Shown: one piece after another, positions 4,170 to 12,029 of the stretch | How positions within the stretch are numbered: the stretch's first letter is position 1 | Layout of the letters: each line of letters starts with the position of its first letter | Assembly: GCF_014672835.1 (NCBI RefSeq) | Contig: NZ_CP060244.1 | Location: forward strand, 1,715,001 to 1,779,000 | Reading direction: 5' to 3' | DNA: 64,000 bases | From: Entomobacter blattae | GTDB taxonomy: Bacteria; Pseudomonadota; Alphaproteobacteria; Acetobacterales; Acetobacteraceae | Translations under genes and position numbers: made by a program | The notes under the pieces: model-generated | Told to the model about the DNA's origin: nothing | The model's database searches: none | Seen by the model: the letters and a program-made list of their open reading frames with translations, nothing else

Positions 4170-5513
4170 ATGATACCTCGTTACAGTCTCCCCACCATGT
4201 CAGCGATTTGGGAAGCTAAAAATCGGTATAAAATATGGTTTGAGATTGAGGCCAGCGCGTGTGAAGCCATGGCCGAGCTGGGTGAAGATATTCCTGCTTC
4301 CTCTGCGCAGATCATTCGCCAAAATGGAGAGAAAGCCATGGCGGCTTTTTCTGAAGCTGATCGACGCAGAATTGATGACATTGAAGCCGAAACCCGCCAT
4401 GATGTGATTGCTTTTTTAACATGGCTTGCTGAAAAGATTGGCCCTGAGAGTCGATTTGTTCATTTGGGGATGACTTCTTCGGATATTTTGGATACGACCT
4501 TTTCTGTTCAGCTCAATCAGGCTGCCGATATTTTATTAGATGATTTAAAACGCCTTCTGGTAGCGTTGGAGAAAAGGGCGTTTGAACATAAACACACTTT
4601 AACCATTGGTCGTAGCCATGGAATTCATGCCGAGCCTCTCTCTTTTGGGTTGAAGCTTGCTGGTTATTATGCTGAATTTTCTCGTAACTATCAGCGGCTG
4701 CAAAGAGCGCAAGAAGAGATTGCCACATGTGCTATTTCAGGCGCAGTAGGAACATATGCCCATATTGACCCACGGGTGGAAGAATATGTTGCCCGTAAAC
4801 TGGGCTTACAGCCAGAACCAGTCTCAACGCAGGTTATTCCACGTGATCGGCACGCAGCGTTTTTTACGGCCTTGGCGATTGTTGCAAGCTCAATAGAGCG
4901 ATTGGCCGTAGAAATACGGCATTTACAGCGCTCGGAAGTGCGCGAGGCTGAGGAATATTTCCATCCTGGGCAAAAAGGCTCTTCAGCCATGCCTCATAAG
5001 CGTAATCCTGTTCTAACAGAAAACCTTACTGGTTTAGCCCGTCTGGTACGTTCTTATAGTCTTCCTGCTTTAGAGAATGTTGCGCTTTGGCATGAGCGTG
5101 ATATCAGTCATTCATCTGTAGAACGTACTATTGGCCCCGATGCGACAATTGCTTTGGATTTTGCCTTAAACCGTTTGGCCGAAGTCATTGAAAAACTGGT
5201 TATTTATCCAGATCGGATGATGGCAAACCTGGAAAGCCTAGGGGGTGTTGTGCATTCTGGGGAGGTATTGCTGGCTTTGGTGAGGGTAGGGATATCCCGC
5301 GAAGATGCCTATCGTATTATTCAGCGAAACGCCATGAAAACCTGGGAGAGGCTTGGCCAGAAAGACTGGAAGTGCTTTAGGGAGAATCTTTTAGGGGATG
5401 AAGAAGTGAGTGGAAGGGTGCCAGAAAATATCATTGATGCGGCGATGGATAACGCCCAGCATCTTAAGCATATCGATTACAGCTTTAAGAAGGTTTTTGG
5501 TAAGGCCGGCTAG
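4170..5513 (+). CDS. purB: Adenylosuccinate lyase
   Basis: PurB removes fumarate in two purine steps: SAICAR to AICAR and adenylosuccinate to AMP. The 447-residue length fits the fumarase/aspartase superfamily. Visible superfamily regions are TSSD at residues 102-105, the SHG(I)HAEP region around 147-153, and the signature loop GSSAMPHKRNP at 270-280 carrying the catalytic serine. The N-terminus MIPRYSLPTMSAIW is typical of PurB rather than argininosuccinate lyase or fumarase. It stands alone here; the other pur genes start 6.7 kb downstream. Confidence 0.96.
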   Translation: MIPRYSLPTMSAIWEAKNRYKIWFEIEASACEAMAELGEDIPASSAQIIRQNGEKAMAAFSEADRRRIDDIEAETRHDVIAFLTWLAEKIGPESRFVHLGMTSSDILDTTFSVQLNQAADILLDDLKRLLVALEKRAFEHKHTLTIGRSHGIHAEPLSFGLKLAGYYAEFSRNYQRLQRAQEEIATCAISGAVGTYAHIDPRVEEYVARKLGLQPEPVSTQVIPRDRHAAFFTALAIVASSIERLAVEIRHLQRSEVREAEEYFHPGQKGSSAMPHKRNPVLTENLTGLARLVRSYSLPALENVALWHERDISHSSVERTIGPDATIALDFALNRLAEVIEKLVIYPDRMMANLESLGGVVHSGEVLLALVRVGISREDAYRIIQRNAMKTWERLGQKDWKCFRENLLGDEEVSGRVPENIIDAAMDNAQHLKHIDYSFKKVFGKAG

Positions 5514-5865: not shown

Positions 5866-5917
5866 AAGAAAACCTTTAATTTTTCTTCAATTTTAGAAAC
5901 AAAGGTTTTCTTTTTTT
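5866..5917 (+). terminator. Strong intrinsic terminator, 350 bp past purB
   Basis: The arms AAGAAAACCTTT (5866-5877) and AAAGGTTTTCTT (5901-5912) are perfect 12-bp complements across a 23-nt loop, and seven Ts cover 5911-5917. It is unusually far from purB, so it may end a separate untranslated transcript or serve as a second barrier before the accessory cassette. Confidence 0.7.
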
Positions 5918-5981
5918 AAGAACAACTTTTCTTGAATAAGAAAGGCTTGGAAATTAGGTAAACTCATGATTATAAAACTTT

Positions 5982-6026
5982 TGTGTATTATGTCCTTAAA
6001 TTTATGTGTATTATATCCTTAATTTA
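5982..6026. repeat. Tandem 22-23 bp repeat upstream of the hydrolase cassette
   Basis: Two adjacent near-identical copies (5982-6004 and 6005-6026) share TGTGTATTAT-TCCTTAA-TTTA. They lie 150-195 bases upstream of the first cassette gene, a plausible place for tandem operator sites, though simple slippage duplication is equally possible. Confidence 0.55.
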
Positions 6027-6175: not shown

Positions 6176-6811
6176 ATGTCAAATTATGCTAAAATGCTCA
6201 CTCCAGATGACTGTGTATTAACTCTTATTGATTTTCAGCCTGCAATGTATCAGGGCGTTCAAAGCCATGACCGGGCAACCATCATGGCCAATGTCCAGAT
6301 CTTGGCAGAGACTGCAAAGGTTTTTAAAGTTCCAACCGTATTAACTAGTGTTGCTTCCAATACATTTTCTGGGCAATTCATGCCTGAAATCACGGAAGGT
6401 GTTTTCCCTGGGAAGCCCATGATTGAGCGGACTTCTATTAATTCATGGCTGGATCCCAAGTTCCGTGAAGCCATTAAAGCAACAGGTAAGAAGCGTGTTG
6501 TTATTGCCGGGTTGTGGACATGTGCCTGCGTAAGTTTCCCAACGTTTGACATGTTGAAAGAAGGGTTTGAAGTTTTCGTTGTTGCCGATGCTTGTGGGGA
6601 CACCAACCTTGAACCACATGATAGAGCGATGGACAGAATGGTGCAGGCTGGTGCGGTTCCTGTCACTGCTCTACAGTTCTTGTTTGAACTACAGCAGGAT
6701 TGGGCCAGAACAGAGACTTACCCAGAAGTTATGGAGATCCTTAAGAAATTTACCCCTTATGGAGTGCAAGTTCGCTTCTCTAAATGGGCTCTTGGTGATC
6801 ATCCTGGCTAA
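6176..6811 (+). CDS. YcaC-like isochorismatase-family cysteine hydrolase
   Basis: The 211-residue start at 6176 (MSNYAKMLTPDD) is preferred over the longer frame from 6116 because the family begins about ten residues before the first strand. The fold is that of isochorismatase-like hydrolases, which use an Asp-Lys-Cys triad to cleave amide or related bonds. Asp19 in LIDFQ is visible, and Cys118 in GLWTCACVSFP sits at the nucleophile position; the lysine is less certain from sequence alone. The ATGKKRVVIAG strand leading to the cysteine resembles E. coli YcaC, whose substrate is unknown. No signal peptide, so cytoplasmic. It is the first gene of a five-gene co-directional cassette. Confidence 0.85.
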   Translation: MSNYAKMLTPDDCVLTLIDFQPAMYQGVQSHDRATIMANVQILAETAKVFKVPTVLTSVASNTFSGQFMPEITEGVFPGKPMIERTSINSWLDPKFREAIKATGKKRVVIAGLWTCACVSFPTFDMLKEGFEVFVVADACGDTNLEPHDRAMDRMVQAGAVPVTALQFLFELQQDWARTETYPEVMEILKKFTPYGVQVRFSKWALGDHPG

Positions 6812-6848
6812 GGCCTGTTCGGTGTATTTTTTCTAGAGAGTTTCTTAT

Positions 6849-6874
6849 CTTCTCCTGTCAGTAGGCGGGAGAAG
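6849..6874 (+). other. Intercistronic hairpin 1 (hydrolase/XapX)
   Basis: CTTCTCCTG (6849-6857) pairs with CGGGAGAAG (6866-6874), nine pairs including one G-U, around an 8-nt loop. It is followed by GTCAGTGTTTTTA, so partial termination is possible. It is the first of four hairpins, one in each internal gap of the cassette. Confidence 0.5.
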
Positions 6875-6941
6875 GTCAGTGTTTTTAGAGAAGATATATA
6901 GATTAATTTTTAACTCTTAATTTCTACTGGGGTGCTTGGTG

Positions 6942-7187
6942 ATGATTCCATATTTGCTTTCTTTTGTTATTGGTTTGGGAGTAGGTGGTCTGTATGCCCT
7001 TTTGGGTGTTGCCTCGCCAGCCCCACCTATCATTGCTCTGTTGGGACTTTTAGGGATGGTTACCGGTGAAACCGCCGTAAAATACATTCGTACGCCTCAT
7101 AAGGAAATTACGCATTCTGTTGCTGAGTTATGCCATTCTAAAAGTTTTATGAATGAGGATGAAAAAAACTCTTCTCCTGTTGGTTAA
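6942..7187 (+). CDS. XapX-domain small membrane protein
   Basis: The ATG at 6942 gives 81 residues and is preceded by CTGGGGT at about 8-nt spacing. Residues 1-50 form the XapX domain: a glycine-rich first membrane segment (FVIGLGVGGLYALLGV), the hallmark SPAPPIIALLGLLGM, and a second hydrophobic segment. The last 30 residues are polar and charged, probably cytoplasmic. The function of XapX proteins is not established. Its position between a cysteine hydrolase and an amidohydrolase suggests a membrane accessory role such as transport or anchoring in the same pathway; this is inference. Confidence 0.8.
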   Translation: MIPYLLSFVIGLGVGGLYALLGVASPAPPIIALLGLLGMVTGETAVKYIRTPHKEITHSVAELCHSKSFMNEDEKNSSPVG

Positions 7188-7196
7188 TGCTATTAA

Positions 7197-7229
7197 AGGG
7201 AATCATCGCCGGTTGGTTGAATGATCCCT
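7197..7229 (+). other. Intercistronic hairpin 2 (XapX/amidohydrolase)
   Basis: AGGGAATCAT (7197-7206) pairs with ATGATCCCT (7221-7229), nine pairs with a single bulged A. No T-run follows. The rest of the 7188-7468 gap is AT-rich, with no other gene or clear promoter. Confidence 0.45.
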
Positions 7230-7468
7230 ACTAAAGATTATGATTGTAAAACAACAGCCTATCACCAGTTTAGGTGTGTGAGTATAGTCAGAGGTATTGA
7301 TTTTACAGAAGGATTTATCATCTCTTTTTAGGGGGATGGTGTTTGGAGCTAGCTTTTGTTTTTATTAAGCTCAACTGGCCTGATTTACAGGAAAATACAG
7401 AGTATTTTATTAGGTTTTTGTTAATGTAGGCTTTAAAAGTATAATTTTAAATATAGGGAGTTAAAGGG

Positions 7469-9358
7469 ATGCCTGCTGTAGAGACACCAGATATTATTTT
7501 GCATAGAGGGTTATTTACAACCCTTGATCCAGCAAACCCTACGGCGAACGCCGTAGCTATCAAGAATGGAGAATTTATTGCTGTTGGGCATGATAAAGAA
7601 ATTATGCCCTTGGCTGGAAAAAACACCAAGATTGTCGACCTTAAAGGACACCGTGTCCTTCCTGGCATTATTGACAACCACCTGCACCTTATCCGCGGTG
7701 GCCTAAATTTTAATATGGAACTGCGGTGGGATGGTGTAAGGAGCCTAGCAGATGGTATGGCCATGCTTCGCCAGCAGGTAGCTATTACCCCTCCACCACA
7801 ATGGGTTCGGATTGTAGGCGGTTTTACCGAAAACCAGTTTGTTGAAAAACGCTTGCCCACGTTAGATGAAATTAACCAGGTTGCCCCTGATACCCCTGTT
7901 TTTATTCTTCATTTATATGATCGGGCCATTCTGAATGCTGCTGCTTTAAGGGCCTGTGGTTATGATAAAAATACTCCAGCGCCTCCTGGCGGAGAATTTG
8001 AAAAAGATGCTCAAGGGAATTTAACGGGTCTTCTCTTGGCCAAGCCGAATGCCACTATTTTATATGCAGCCCTGGCTCGTGGTCCGAAACTGCCGTTTGA
8101 TTATCAGGTGAATTCGACACGCCATTTTATGCGGGAACTGAATCGTTTAGGAATTACCAGCGCTATTGATGCGGGCGGTGGTTCGCAAAATTACCCTGAA
8201 GATTACCAGGTGATCAAAAAATTATCTGATGAAAAACAGCTTACGATACGTATTGCCTATAATTTGTTCACCCAAAAGCCCAAGCAGGAAAAGGAAGATT
8301 TTCTGAATTGGTGCCAGACCACCACTTACCATGATGGAGATAGCTATTTCCGCCATAATGGTGCTGGGGAAATGCTGGTCTATTCAGCAGCGGATTTTGA
8401 AGATTTCCGCCAGCCTCGCCCTGATATGCCCTCTAATATGGAAGGGGATCTGGAAGGTGTTATTCGTGTTCTGGCCCAAAATAGATGGCCGTGGCGGCTG
8501 CATGCGACTTATGATGAGACCATCTCACGGGCTTTGGATGTTTTCGAGAAAGTGAACCAGGATATCCCATTGGAAGGTCTTAATTGGTTTTTTGATCATG
8601 CAGAGACCATCTCAGATCGTTCAATTGATCGTATCGCTGCCTTAGGTGGGGGGATCGCCTTGCAACATCGTATGGCTTATCAAGGCGAATATTTTGTTGA
8701 GCGCTATGGTTTGGGCGCAGCGGAAGCGACCCCACCGGTGAAGAAAATTATGGACGCAGGTGTTAAAACCTCTGGCGGTTCGGATGCAACGCGGGTTTCT
8801 TCTTACAATCCGTGGGTCGGGCTTTCATGGTTGGTGACTGGTAAAACGGTTGGTGGCCTTAAAATTTACCCTAACCAAAACTGTCTTGATCGTGAAACGG
8901 CCCTACGCATGTATACGGAAAAGAGTACATGGTTTTCTAACGAAGTGGGGAAAAAGGGGCAAATCAAGGTTGGCCAGTATGCAGACCTTATTGTGCCAAA
9001 CCATGACTATTTTTCCTGTGCTGAAGACGAGATTAGCCATATCGTTTCAGAATTGACAATGGTTGGCGGTAAAATCGTTTATTCTGAAGGCGAATTTGGC
9101 CCGCTGAATGAGGTGGAAGTCCCTCCTGCTATGCCAGAATGGTCTCCTGTTCGTACCTATAAAGGGTATGGTGCCTGGGGTGTAGAGAAAAAAGATTCTA
9201 CCGCCTTTATGCGCCAGACTGCTGCATCAAGCTGTGGATGTGAAAGTGCCTGTGCAACACATGGCCATGATCACGCTGCGGCATGGGCTAGTAAAATTCC
9301 CGTAGCCGACCTCAAGAGCTTCTGGGGAGCCCTGGGATGCTCTTGTTGGGCGTTTTAA
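7469..9358 (+). CDS. YtcJ-type amidohydrolase with Cys/His-rich tail
   Basis: A 629-residue metal-dependent hydrolase of the amidohydrolase 3 (YtcJ/NfdA) group, which hydrolyses amides and formamides. An N-terminal beta domain (ILHRGLFTTLDPANPTANAV) leads into the TIM barrel with the metal pair His71 and His73 in DNHLH. Later motifs are HAETISDRSIDRI and GGSDATRVSSYNPW, carrying a further His and the barrel-end Asp. The C-terminal beta domain includes KVGQYADLIV. The last 43 residues are unusual: CGC, a THGHDH cluster and a final GCSCWAF. No signal peptide. GGGAG-rich spacing upstream (AGGGAGTTAAAGGG) supports the start. The substrate is unknown; the cassette context suggests it acts with the YcaC-like hydrolase. 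Confidence 0.88.
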   Translation: MPAVETPDIILHRGLFTTLDPANPTANAVAIKNGEFIAVGHDKEIMPLAGKNTKIVDLKGHRVLPGIIDNHLHLIRGGLNFNMELRWDGVRSLADGMAMLRQQVAITPPPQWVRIVGGFTENQFVEKRLPTLDEINQVAPDTPVFILHLYDRAILNAAALRACGYDKNTPAPPGGEFEKDAQGNLTGLLLAKPNATILYAALARGPKLPFDYQVNSTRHFMRELNRLGITSAIDAGGGSQNYPEDYQVIKKLSDEKQLTIRIAYNLFTQKPKQEKEDFLNWCQTTTYHDGDSYFRHNGAGEMLVYSAADFEDFRQPRPDMPSNMEGDLEGVIRVLAQNRWPWRLHATYDETISRALDVFEKVNQDIPLEGLNWFFDHAETISDRSIDRIAALGGGIALQHRMAYQGEYFVERYGLGAAEATPPVKKIMDAGVKTSGGSDATRVSSYNPWVGLSWLVTGKTVGGLKIYPNQNCLDRETALRMYTEKSTWFSNEVGKKGQIKVGQYADLIVPNHDYFSCAEDEISHIVSELTMVGGKIVYSEGEFGPLNEVEVPPAMPEWSPVRTYKGYGAWGVEKKDSTAFMRQTAASSCGCESACATHGHDHAAAWASKIPVADLKSFWGALGCSCWAF

Positions 9359-9392
9359 GTTTCCTTATAAAAATATTATAGGTGATGTTTTT

Positions 9393-9431
9393 GTAAAGAA
9401 TATTACTGTATAACAACAGTATATTCTTTAC
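9393..9431 (+). other. Intercistronic hairpin 3 (amidohydrolase/VOC)
   Basis: GTAAAGAATATTACTGT (9393-9409) pairs with ACAGTATATTCTTTAC (9416-9431), sixteen pairs with one bulged T and a short loop. A T-rich stretch follows at a distance. It is the longest of the cassette hairpins and could reduce read-through or protect the upstream mRNA. Confidence 0.6.
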
Positions 9432-9467
9432 TATATTGGTTTGGTTTTTTATTTTAAGGGGATATGT

Positions 9468-10406
9468 ATGAAAAAGCGTGGCTGGTTTGGTTATACAGCG
9501 CTTGCTCTTATGGCAAGTTTGTCTTTTGTTGGAAATAATAGTGCAATTGCTCGCACGGGTGATGCAGAGCCCGCACAACAGCAAATTATCGGCGGACCAA
9601 TTTTAGCGGTAGGTCCCCAATATGATACAACGCACGTGTATATTAGCCCTAATAAAAGGGATGATTTTGTAAAAAGCTTTTTAGGGACATTTGGGGGAAC
9701 CTCCACTAAAACGGTTGTTGCCACAGTAACCCCCACACCAAGCTCAACAACTTCACAGCTATTATTTACTCCAGTTGGTACCCTTTCCGTCTTTGGGTTT
9801 AAAACTCCTATTCCTTACCCATTTGGTCAGGAACGGACGGGTTATTTGGTTACGGATATGGATAAGGCTATTGATTGGGCGCAGAAAAATGGGGCGTACG
9901 TTGTCGTTGCTCCCTTTAATGACCCAATAGGGCGTGATGCAGTCATCCAATGGCCTGGTGGGGTGAATATGCAGATTTATTGGCATTTCAAGTCTCCTTC
10001 CTATAAGCCATTACACACTATTCCAGAAAACCGGATCTATTTAACGCCACGGGCTGCAGAGGCTTTTGTGAAAAGTTTTGTGACCTTTTCCAGAGGGCGC
10101 GTTGTTTCAGATGAAAGCGCAGTATCCGGAGTTGAGATTGGCCGCCCCGATACAACTTTTAGGCGGATTCGTTTGGAATCTGGTTTTGGGAAAGTGGTTG
10201 TTCTTGTGACAGAAGGCTTTTTGCCTTACCCCTATGGGCATGAAATTTCAGGATATGAAGTAACAGATTTTGATGCCACGATAAGGCAAGCAAAAGATCA
10301 TGGGGTTAAGGTTCTTGCTGGGCCTTATACGGTACAAGGGCAGAAAGGGGCGATCTTGGAATTCCCTGGCGCTTATATTGCCGAAATCCATACTGCTACG
10401 CCCTAA
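9468..10406 (+). CDS. Secreted VOC/glyoxalase-fold protein
   Basis: The ATG at 9468 follows AAGGGGA and begins a Sec signal: MKKRGW, a hydrophobic core, and a likely cut after NNSAIA. The remaining ~285 residues contain two related halves that look like vicinal-oxygen-chelate modules. Each has a YISP/YLTP-N-x-R strand start, a FV-KSF segment (around residues 58 and 192), and a G-Y-x-VTDxDxAI-A---G--V segment (around 125 and 255). The internal repeat PYP(F/Y)G(Q/H)E confirms the duplication. VOC proteins use such paired modules to bind a metal or a small hydrophobic ligand. A periplasmic member next to a porin and two hydrolases suggests substrate binding or a first conversion step; no activity can be assigned. 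Confidence 0.75.
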   Translation: MKKRGWFGYTALALMASLSFVGNNSAIARTGDAEPAQQQIIGGPILAVGPQYDTTHVYISPNKRDDFVKSFLGTFGGTSTKTVVATVTPTPSSTTSQLLFTPVGTLSVFGFKTPIPYPFGQERTGYLVTDMDKAIDWAQKNGAYVVVAPFNDPIGRDAVIQWPGGVNMQIYWHFKSPSYKPLHTIPENRIYLTPRAAEAFVKSFVTFSRGRVVSDESAVSGVEIGRPDTTFRRIRLESGFGKVVVLVTEGFLPYPYGHEISGYEVTDFDATIRQAKDHGVKVLAGPYTVQGQKGAILEFPGAYIAEIHTATP

Positions 10407-10445
10407 GAAAGGCATACCCCTAAAAAGGTGTAAGAGTATCAAAAA

Positions 10446-10482
10446 TGTAGCAAAAGGCCTTAAAAATAAGGTTTTTTGCTAC
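10446..10482 (-). other. Intercistronic hairpin 4 (VOC/porin)
   Basis: A long stem: TGTAGCAAAA with TTTTTGCTACA outside and CCTTA with TAAGG inside. On the plus strand A-rich sequence follows; on the minus strand a five-T run follows. It could therefore terminate antisense transcription or act as a stability element on the plus-strand mRNA. Confidence 0.55.
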
Positions 10483-10529
10483 AAACAATAAAAAAATAAA
10501 AAAAAGAAGCAGCATAAAAAAGAAACGGA

Positions 10530-12029
10530 ATGCAGGGATTATACAAAAAGGTTGGTTTTTGTTTCATTGTTGGTATGGTTGTTTCTTTTTCAAAAGAATC
10601 CTTTGCTCAGGGCACTGCCGAACAGACAGAGCGGGGGCCTTATATTTCCACATTGGCTTTTGATAAATTGGACGATGGAAAAGAACCTTGGAACTTGAAT
10701 GACAGCCTTTCCAAAACTCGACCCAAGATTGAAGCGAACCGGTGGACAGAAAAATGGGCTGCTCTCTATAATCCTTCCTTACGAACTGAGCCACTGGATT
10801 CATTAAAATATATTTCTCTCGATGAGTCTGATCCTTATTCTTATATCTCTTTGGGGATGAACGTTCGGGAGCGTTACGAGAACTTAAGCTCTAGTCAATT
10901 TGGAATTACGCCCAATAAGCATGATAACTATCTGCTGCACAGGCTACTATTTCATTTTGATATAAGAGTAGATAGGCACTGGCAGATTTACACCCAGTTT
11001 GAAGATGTGCGTCCGGTTGAAAAAAACACTATTAGCCCCGTTGATAAAAACAAGTTGGATGTCCGTATGGCCTTTGTGGGCTACCAAACCCGCCTTGATG
11101 AGGATTCTGTTTTAAAAGCTCGGGTCGGGCGCCAGGGTTTTGCCTTTGATTTACAAAGATTTGTATCTTTGCGGCAGGGGCCAAACGTTCAGCAGGCGTT
11201 TGATGCCATTTGGGGAGATCTGGAGCTGGGGGAGTGGCGTATTATCGGTATTTTAAGCCATCCTGTTCAGTATCAAGCCAAACGAGTATTTGACGACTAC
11301 TCAAACTCTCGCAACTCTTTTCACATGTTTCGCGTTGAACGGCACGTACTGGGAGATGCCTCTCTTTCTGCCTATTATGCCCGTTATGAACAACACGATA
11401 CTAGTGTTTACAATACACCAGGCAATGAAAGGCGTAATATTATTGATGCCCACTTTGCGGGCAAAAAATATGGAGTTGATTGGGATGTAGAAAGTATGGG
11501 CCAGTTTGGTGATATCACCGGTAAAAATATCCAGGCATGGGCAGCAGCAGCCCGACTAGGCTATACTTTCGATGTCGATACCTCTCCTCGTATTGGTATT
11601 CAGTTTGACTCTGCCTCAGGTAGCCATAACCCTAATGGGCATACGATTGGTACTTTTAATCCCCTTTATCCCAATGGGTATTATTTTACTTTGGCAGGGT
11701 TTACGGGGTACTCTAACCTTGTTCATCTTAAGCCTTCTTTCTCTTTCAATCCCATCAAGAGTGTCTCTCTTGAATTTGATGTGGGGATGCAGTGGCGTGA
11801 AACACGAAATGATGCCATTTATACCCAACCTAATATTCCTTTGCGGAATACAGCTGGAAAAGGAAGCCACTGGAGTGGTGTTTACGAGGCAGCAACTTTG
11901 GGCTGGTCGGTCATGCCTAATTTGTCTTTCTCTGTAATGGAAGCCTATTATCAGGTGGGTGATACGATCCGCCAAGCCGGTGGGCATAATAGCAACTATA
12001 CAGGTGCACAAATGGATTTTGCCTGGTAG
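10530..12029 (+). CDS. Alginate-export-family outer-membrane porin
   Basis: A 499-residue protein with a Sec signal (hydrophobic core around residues 10-22, likely cut after SFAQ) followed by an alternating aromatic beta-strand pattern ending in ...MDFAW, a typical outer-membrane C-terminus. The region SLGMNVRERYENL through the RVGRQGFAF segment is characteristic of the alginate-export (AlgE-like) barrel family, whose members pass many substrates other than alginate. No alginate or polysaccharide genes are nearby. It is the last cassette gene, 123 bases behind the VOC protein, and likely brings the cassette substrate into the periplasm. The start has only a weak ribosome site (ACGGA). Confidence 0.82.
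   Translation: MQGLYKKVGFCFIVGMVVSFSKESFAQGTAEQTERGPYISTLAFDKLDDGKEPWNLNDSLSKTRPKIEANRWTEKWAALYNPSLRTEPLDSLKYISLDESDPYSYISLGMNVRERYENLSSSQFGITPNKHDNYLLHRLLFHFDIRVDRHWQIYTQFEDVRPVEKNTISPVDKNKLDVRMAFVGYQTRLDEDSVLKARVGRQGFAFDLQRFVSLRQGPNVQQAFDAIWGDLELGEWRIIGILSHPVQYQAKRVFDDYSNSRNSFHMFRVERHVLGDASLSAYYARYEQHDTSVYNTPGNERRNIIDAHFAGKKYGVDWDVESMGQFGDITGKNIQAWAAAARLGYTFDVDTSPRIGIQFDSASGSHNPNGHTIGTFNPLYPNGYYFTLAGFTGYSNLVHLKPSFSFNPIKSVSLEFDVGMQWRETRNDAIYTQPNIPLRNTAGKGSHWSGVYEAATLGWSVMPNLSFSVMEAYYQVGDTIRQAGGHNSNYTGAQMDFAW

Follow-up and report, generated by a model that had tools for sequence, protein, structure and literature searches.

A five-gene cassette of Entomobacter blattae represents the VOC and porin form of an accessory module conserved among proteobacteria

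Metal-dependent amidohydrolases of the Amidohydro_3 family include the YtcJ-like proteins with structures 3igh and 3icj, both of which are uncharacterised to our knowledge. YcaC of Escherichia coli and PA1202 of Pseudomonas aeruginosa are cysteine hydrolases for which the roles of residues Asp19, Arg84, Cys118 and Trp176 have been described, and the cysteine of YcaC is reactive towards acrylamide, an electrophile (PMC4519933). In Bacillus subtilis and Staphylococcus aureus the MhqO, MhqE and MhqD proteins serve quinone detoxification (PMC6798810). Here we compare with these systems a cassette found in a 64,000-nucleotide stretch of the E. blattae genome (NZ_CP060244.1, positions 1,715,001 to 1,779,000; hereafter the window, in which all unprefixed coordinates are given). 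Its genes encode a cysteine hydrolase resembling YcaC, the membrane protein XapX, an Amidohydro_3 amidohydrolase, a secreted two-domain vicinal oxygen chelate (VOC) protein and an Alginate_exp porin. An accessory module with this core is conserved in many proteobacteria, and the cassette is its VOC and porin form.

All five cassette proteins were used to search the 80 closest amidohydrolase loci in public genomes, these being the best of at least 588 matches. The ycaC-xapX-amidohydrolase core was present in 67 of the 80, representing 18 named genera, and all five genes in 16, from Bradyrhizobium, Rhodopseudomonas, Nitrospirillum, Rhizobium, Dyella and a Beijerinckiaceae metagenome-assembled genome (MAG). 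Among 87 loci scanned, xapX adjoined the amidohydrolase gene in 75. In a neighbourhood control drawn from genomes of the host's own family, with equal flanks of 1.5 kb, ycaC or xapX was found beside 23 of 26 orthologous and 0 of 26 non-orthologous Amidohydro_3 loci (p = 1.5e-11, Fisher; this and the Fisher values below ignore the shared ancestry of the loci), ruling out a chance neighbourhood. The host genome is a single contig of 2.70 Mb, in which five full-length open reading frames (ORFs) lie on the plus strand between purB (4170-5513) and purC (approximately 12224), separated by gaps of 109-281 bp (Table 1). A preliminary description of this DNA had reported five genes in one direction, named their families, placed a terminator upstream and proposed that the genes belong together; all ORFs are intact, profile searches return the same families, a terminator-like hairpin does follow purB, and the co-occurrence elsewhere bears out the grouping.

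Downstream of the core the relatives carry one of two alternative second halves, either an MFS_3 transporter of the major facilitator superfamily (MFS), often with an alpha/beta hydrolase, or a secreted VOC protein and porin, often with YoaK/DUF1275. Downstream sequence sufficed for this comparison in 74 loci. Of the 18 with a VOC gene, 16 also had the porin (p = 3.7e-13) but only one had MFS (p = 1.4e-8), so that VOC and MFS nearly exclude each other. Neighbours counted in the 87 scanned loci were DoxX (77), alpha/beta hydrolase (57), LysR (52), MFS (51) and AraC (39). The Sinorhizobium meliloti pSymA (L144) and Bradyrhizobium (L059) loci have the same core gene order as the window, and Bradyrhizobium also has VOC and porin, but these rhizobial and bradyrhizobial loci add DoxX, MFS with alpha/beta hydrolase or YoaK, and often LysR or AraC regulators; no characterised example was present in the papers found. 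The Beijerinckiaceae MAG locus (L055) shares the window's gene order and likewise has no DoxX, but YoaK is present. The sole DoxX-family match of the host genome lies elsewhere, outside the cassette.

The amidohydrolase was also found on 371 plasmids, and annotated copies of the whole or partial module occur in Rhizobium, Paraburkholderia, Novosphingobium and Pantoea. A shorter form in Klebsiella has the order LysR-hydrolase-monooxygenase-amidohydrolase. On an Escherichia albertii IncF plasmid (L143:9001-9981) a half-length amidohydrolase piece adjoins an IS21 transposase, and on pRlX4 of R. ruizarguesonis (L135:9902-9979) the porin is annotated as a 78-bp piece, perhaps broken, beside an intact VOC gene.

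The YcaC-like hydrolase matches structures 1yac and 4wgf (E approximately 1e-31) and carries the YcaC active-site residues as D19, R85, C118 and W176, which alignment shows to be kept in 98-100% of 92 relatives. It resembles E. coli YcaC and PA1202 in this D19/R84/C118-type site and over 170 aligned residues, but differs in its neighbouring genes and in scoring 134.3 bits against NF041461, for which the curated equivalog cut-off is 310; with a score so far under the cut-off it is a YcaC-like relative and not a YcaC orthologue. Nicotinamidase and biuret hydrolase were rejected as identities, since Arg occupies the Lys position of the Asp-Lys-Cys triad and the scores against the family cut-offs are 35.8 vs 174 and 24.1 vs 370 bits. 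Other isochorismatase-fold genes of the host genome lie away from the cassette (G000:C1:1257040-1257642, 2273324 and 2281720). XapX scores 58.6 bits against TIGR03510 (cut-off 27.8), and its PF07235 match is also above cut-off.

The amidohydrolase scores above the PF07969 cut-off, its metal ligands H71, H73, H345, H377 and D439 are invariant, and its Foldseek neighbours are deaminases and amidohydrolases. It shares the barrel and metal ligands with the YtcJ-like 3igh and 3icj but forms its own orthologue group with an additional, previously undescribed C-terminal Cys/His tail. No fewer than 109 of the 111 orthologues keep the five Cys and three His residues of this tail. It is absent from nearly all non-orthologous Amidohydro_3 proteins, partial look-alikes occurring for example in L054 and L021; among the loci themselves, L052 and L054 have a shortened tail or none, and in L137 it has diverged. 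A Pfam search of the tail gave no match even at E 1, and the confidence of its predicted structure is low (predicted local distance difference test, pLDDT, <50). Its residue pattern looks like that of a metal or thiol site.

An AlphaFold2 model of the VOC protein (pLDDT 61) contains two VOC domains and is best matched by Rv0577 (Z 16.7), followed by extradiol dioxygenases (Z approximately 15). The two-domain fold is common to all of these, but the cassette protein is predicted to be secreted, appears to lack canonical metal ligands and is at most 16% identical to them. It is not supported as a plain extradiol dioxygenase, the expected metal ligands apparently being missing although the fold matches. 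Placed by eye on strand order in this model of pLDDT 61, the ligand positions hold the conserved H56 and E306, the others being R189, Q169 and G262/Y263. A second VOC gene of the host genome (G000:C1:1247044-1247829; L180; L184:6045-6875), 41-42% identical to that of the cassette, is an ORF of 276 amino acids with one stop inside the matched stretch; none of the other module genes lies less than 6 kb away. The host genome also encodes a second Alginate_exp porin away from the cassette (G000:C1:1054633-1055877).

The cassette was likely acquired horizontally. In the amidohydrolase tree the window protein groups with Rhizobiales, Nitrospirillum, Dyella and a few Roseomonas-like entries and not within the main clades of the host's family, and among 299 genomes of that family the VOC gene is present in three and the amidohydrolase in 29. 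Foreign base composition was not seen, the G+C fraction of the cassette (0.44) matching that of the host (window 0.45), so the case for transfer rests on phylogeny and distribution. In the 1.5 kb flanks covered, purB lies upstream of purC in nine of 30 related loci, with a gap of 85-106 bp in two and approximately 0.8-1.3 kb in seven; since the two genes are direct or close neighbours in several relatives, the interval is a variable spot.

Predicted transcription signals precede and interrupt the cassette (Table 1). The tandem repeats preceding ycaC may be an operator or regulator site, and no regulator gene beside the cassette was seen in the ORF list of the window. With strong hairpins inside it, the cassette is only a putative single transcription unit.

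Table 1. Genes of the cassette, the amidohydrolase tail and predicted transcription signals (window coordinates)
Feature	Position	Strand	Details
ycaC-like cysteine hydrolase, isochorismatase fold	6176..6811	+	211 aa; PF00857 102 bits
xapX, small membrane protein (DUF1427/XapX)	6942..7187	+	81 aa; PF07235 59 bits
Amidohydro_3 metal-dependent amidohydrolase	7469..9358	+	629 aa; PF07969 422 bits
C-terminal tail of amidohydrolase, CGCx3CxxHGHxH...F(W/F)GALGCxCWA	9230..9355	+	residues ~588-629 (~42 residues)
Secreted two-domain VOC protein	9468..10406	+	312 aa; Glyoxalase_4 29 bits; signal peptide at N terminus, judged by eye
Alginate_exp outer-membrane porin	10530..12029	+	499 aa; PF13372 360 bits vs cut-off 25
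Terminator-like hairpin then U run, purB-ycaC gap	5866..5912	+	12-bp stem, -14 kcal/mol, z -2.1
Two tandem 23-nt direct repeats before ycaC	5975..6020	+	87% identical, spacing 23
Hairpin ycaC-xapX, possible attenuator or terminator	6844..6879	+	-20.4 kcal/mol, z -4.0
Hairpin amidohydrolase-VOC	9393..9431	+	within 109-nt fold of -27 kcal/mol, z -4.0
17-bp inverted repeat VOC-porin, terminator-like	10446..10483	+	fold -26 kcal/mol, z -5.2

As to function, the reading we prefer, though we hold it only tentatively and at somewhat less than an even chance, is that a core combined with interchangeable transport halves serves to deal with some small, reactive compound of electrophilic, phenolic or quinone-like character, or with conjugates of it. 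This substrate class is suggested by association with the MhqO, DoxX, alpha/beta hydrolase, LysR and AraC neighbours of relatives. The reactivity of the YcaC cysteine towards an electrophile, at a site that the cassette enzyme shares, points the same way; the invariant metal ligands of the amidohydrolase and the extradiol-type two-domain fold of the VOC protein also count in favour of the reading. A ring-cleaving dioxygenase of MhqO type (E 1.5e-72 to MhqO in PDB 3oaj) is encoded near 30 of the 38 Rhizobiaceae loci and near 16 of the remaining 42 (four of these 16 being Rhizobiales isolates), despite a copy number of only 0-3 in the genomes tested. In Bradyrhizobium embrapense both of the genome's mhqO copies lie beside the module, no more than 9 kb away, and two of the three copies in Aestuariivirga lie near it (L068 and L091). 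An Agrobacterium mhqO gene is induced 17-fold on lignin (PMC12673573). The relatives resemble the MhqR-type quinone detoxification systems of Bacillus and Staphylococcus (mhqNOPED and mhqRED) in that DoxX, alpha/beta hydrolases and a homologue of MhqO are often encoded beside them, but the mhq systems have no amidohydrolase, XapX, YcaC-like protein or porin, their regulators differ and the host genome has no MhqO.

For the order of events we infer the following scheme, with XapX as a membrane component. The porin would admit the compound across the outer membrane, and the periplasmic VOC protein would bind, sequester or convert it. After entry the two hydrolases would dismantle it, the amidohydrolase acting at its metal centre, perhaps assisted by the Cys/His tail, and the YcaC-like enzyme through its nucleophilic cysteine. 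In many relatives an MFS transporter forms the second half, so that the same core would be paired with interchangeable transport functions. The cell locations assumed here (porin in the outer membrane, VOC in the periplasm, XapX in a membrane and both hydrolases in the cytoplasm) are those of the preliminary description, and they agree with the signal-peptide-like N termini seen by eye in the VOC relatives.

Several observations weigh against the preferred reading or narrow it, in addition to the selected sample of loci and the shared ancestry mentioned above. The window cassette has the VOC and porin half without the usual partners DoxX and YoaK, and hairpins between its genes may split its transcription. 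The cassette VOC appears to lack the canonical His-His-Glu metal site and was rejected as an MhqO relative (hhalign probability 0.2). A search of the host genome for MhqO gave no match, although this query does find one in 12 of the 16 other genomes, and MhqO is also absent from the five-gene loci of Nitrospirillum, Dyella and Rhodopseudomonas. The quinone link may therefore concern only some relatives, and it is weak for these VOC and porin loci and for the window.

A catabolic route for an amide-bearing nutrient, in which the porin imports the compound and both hydrolases cut C-N bonds sequentially to yield carbon or nitrogen, would suit a porin with a periplasmic protein, two hydrolase families that include many C-N hydrolases, and an amidohydrolase with intact metal ligands and the structural neighbours described above. 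We nevertheless consider it unlikely, since Arg85 replaces the amidase lysine and the scores fall far under the biuret hydrolase and nicotinamidase cut-offs, most relatives have an MFS_3 transporter instead of VOC and porin, stress-type neighbours (DoxX, MhqO) are common among them, and no downstream catabolic genes were seen beside the cassette in the window. The missing lysine likewise tells against the amide or formamide-like substrate first suggested for this locus, and nothing else favours formamide. Nor does the cassette appear to be the complete route then envisaged, as DoxX plus YoaK or MFS, carried by most relatives, are absent from it.

Bleomycin-resistance proteins have the same fold as VOC proteins, a family relationship given in the Pfam description, and the module could accordingly be imagined to modify or degrade a signal or antibiotic (quinolone, lactone or bleomycin-like), with periplasmic binding by VOC, inactivation by the hydrolases and, in the alternative form, export by MFS. 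The relatives' MFS proteins do match exporter families weakly and plasmid copies of the amidohydrolase are numerous, but the wide chromosomal distribution, the oddity of a porin next to a resistance function and the resistance genes not seen alongside in the regions read make this improbable. We give equally little credence to the proposal that the window cassette is a dismantled remnant of the conserved core, its genes separately transcribed and serving separate roles after loss of DoxX and YoaK. The intergenic hairpins and gaps, the missing partners and the lack of a visible adjacent regulator would fit such decay; against it stand five full-length ORFs with conserved active sites and the same gene order, also without DoxX, in the Beijerinckiaceae MAG.

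The module is real, conserved and built from known families. It is undescribed as far as open-access papers go, as the preliminary description had supposed: an open-access search on the gene set gave no useful match, and no paper there combines XapX, isochorismatase and amidohydrolase. We know of no established physiological role for YcaC-like hydrolases, XapX proteins or the tailed amidohydrolase group. We think it possible, though less likely than not, that these loci represent an undescribed system, widespread in proteobacteria, whose fixed core consists of a YcaC-like hydrolase and a metallo-amidohydrolase with a new C-terminal Cys/His motif as its tail, this core being combined with MFS or with VOC and porin, and the tail binding metal or scavenging electrophiles. 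If true, this would give YcaC-like, XapX and secreted VOC proteins their first physiological role. Bringing YcaC-like hydrolases, XapX proteins and the tailed amidohydrolase group together in a single conserved module, marked by its Cys/His tail and by two transport halves that replace each other, turns three orphan families into one testable question, and the module is present in the genetically tractable organisms Caulobacter, Sinorhizobium and Bradyrhizobium.

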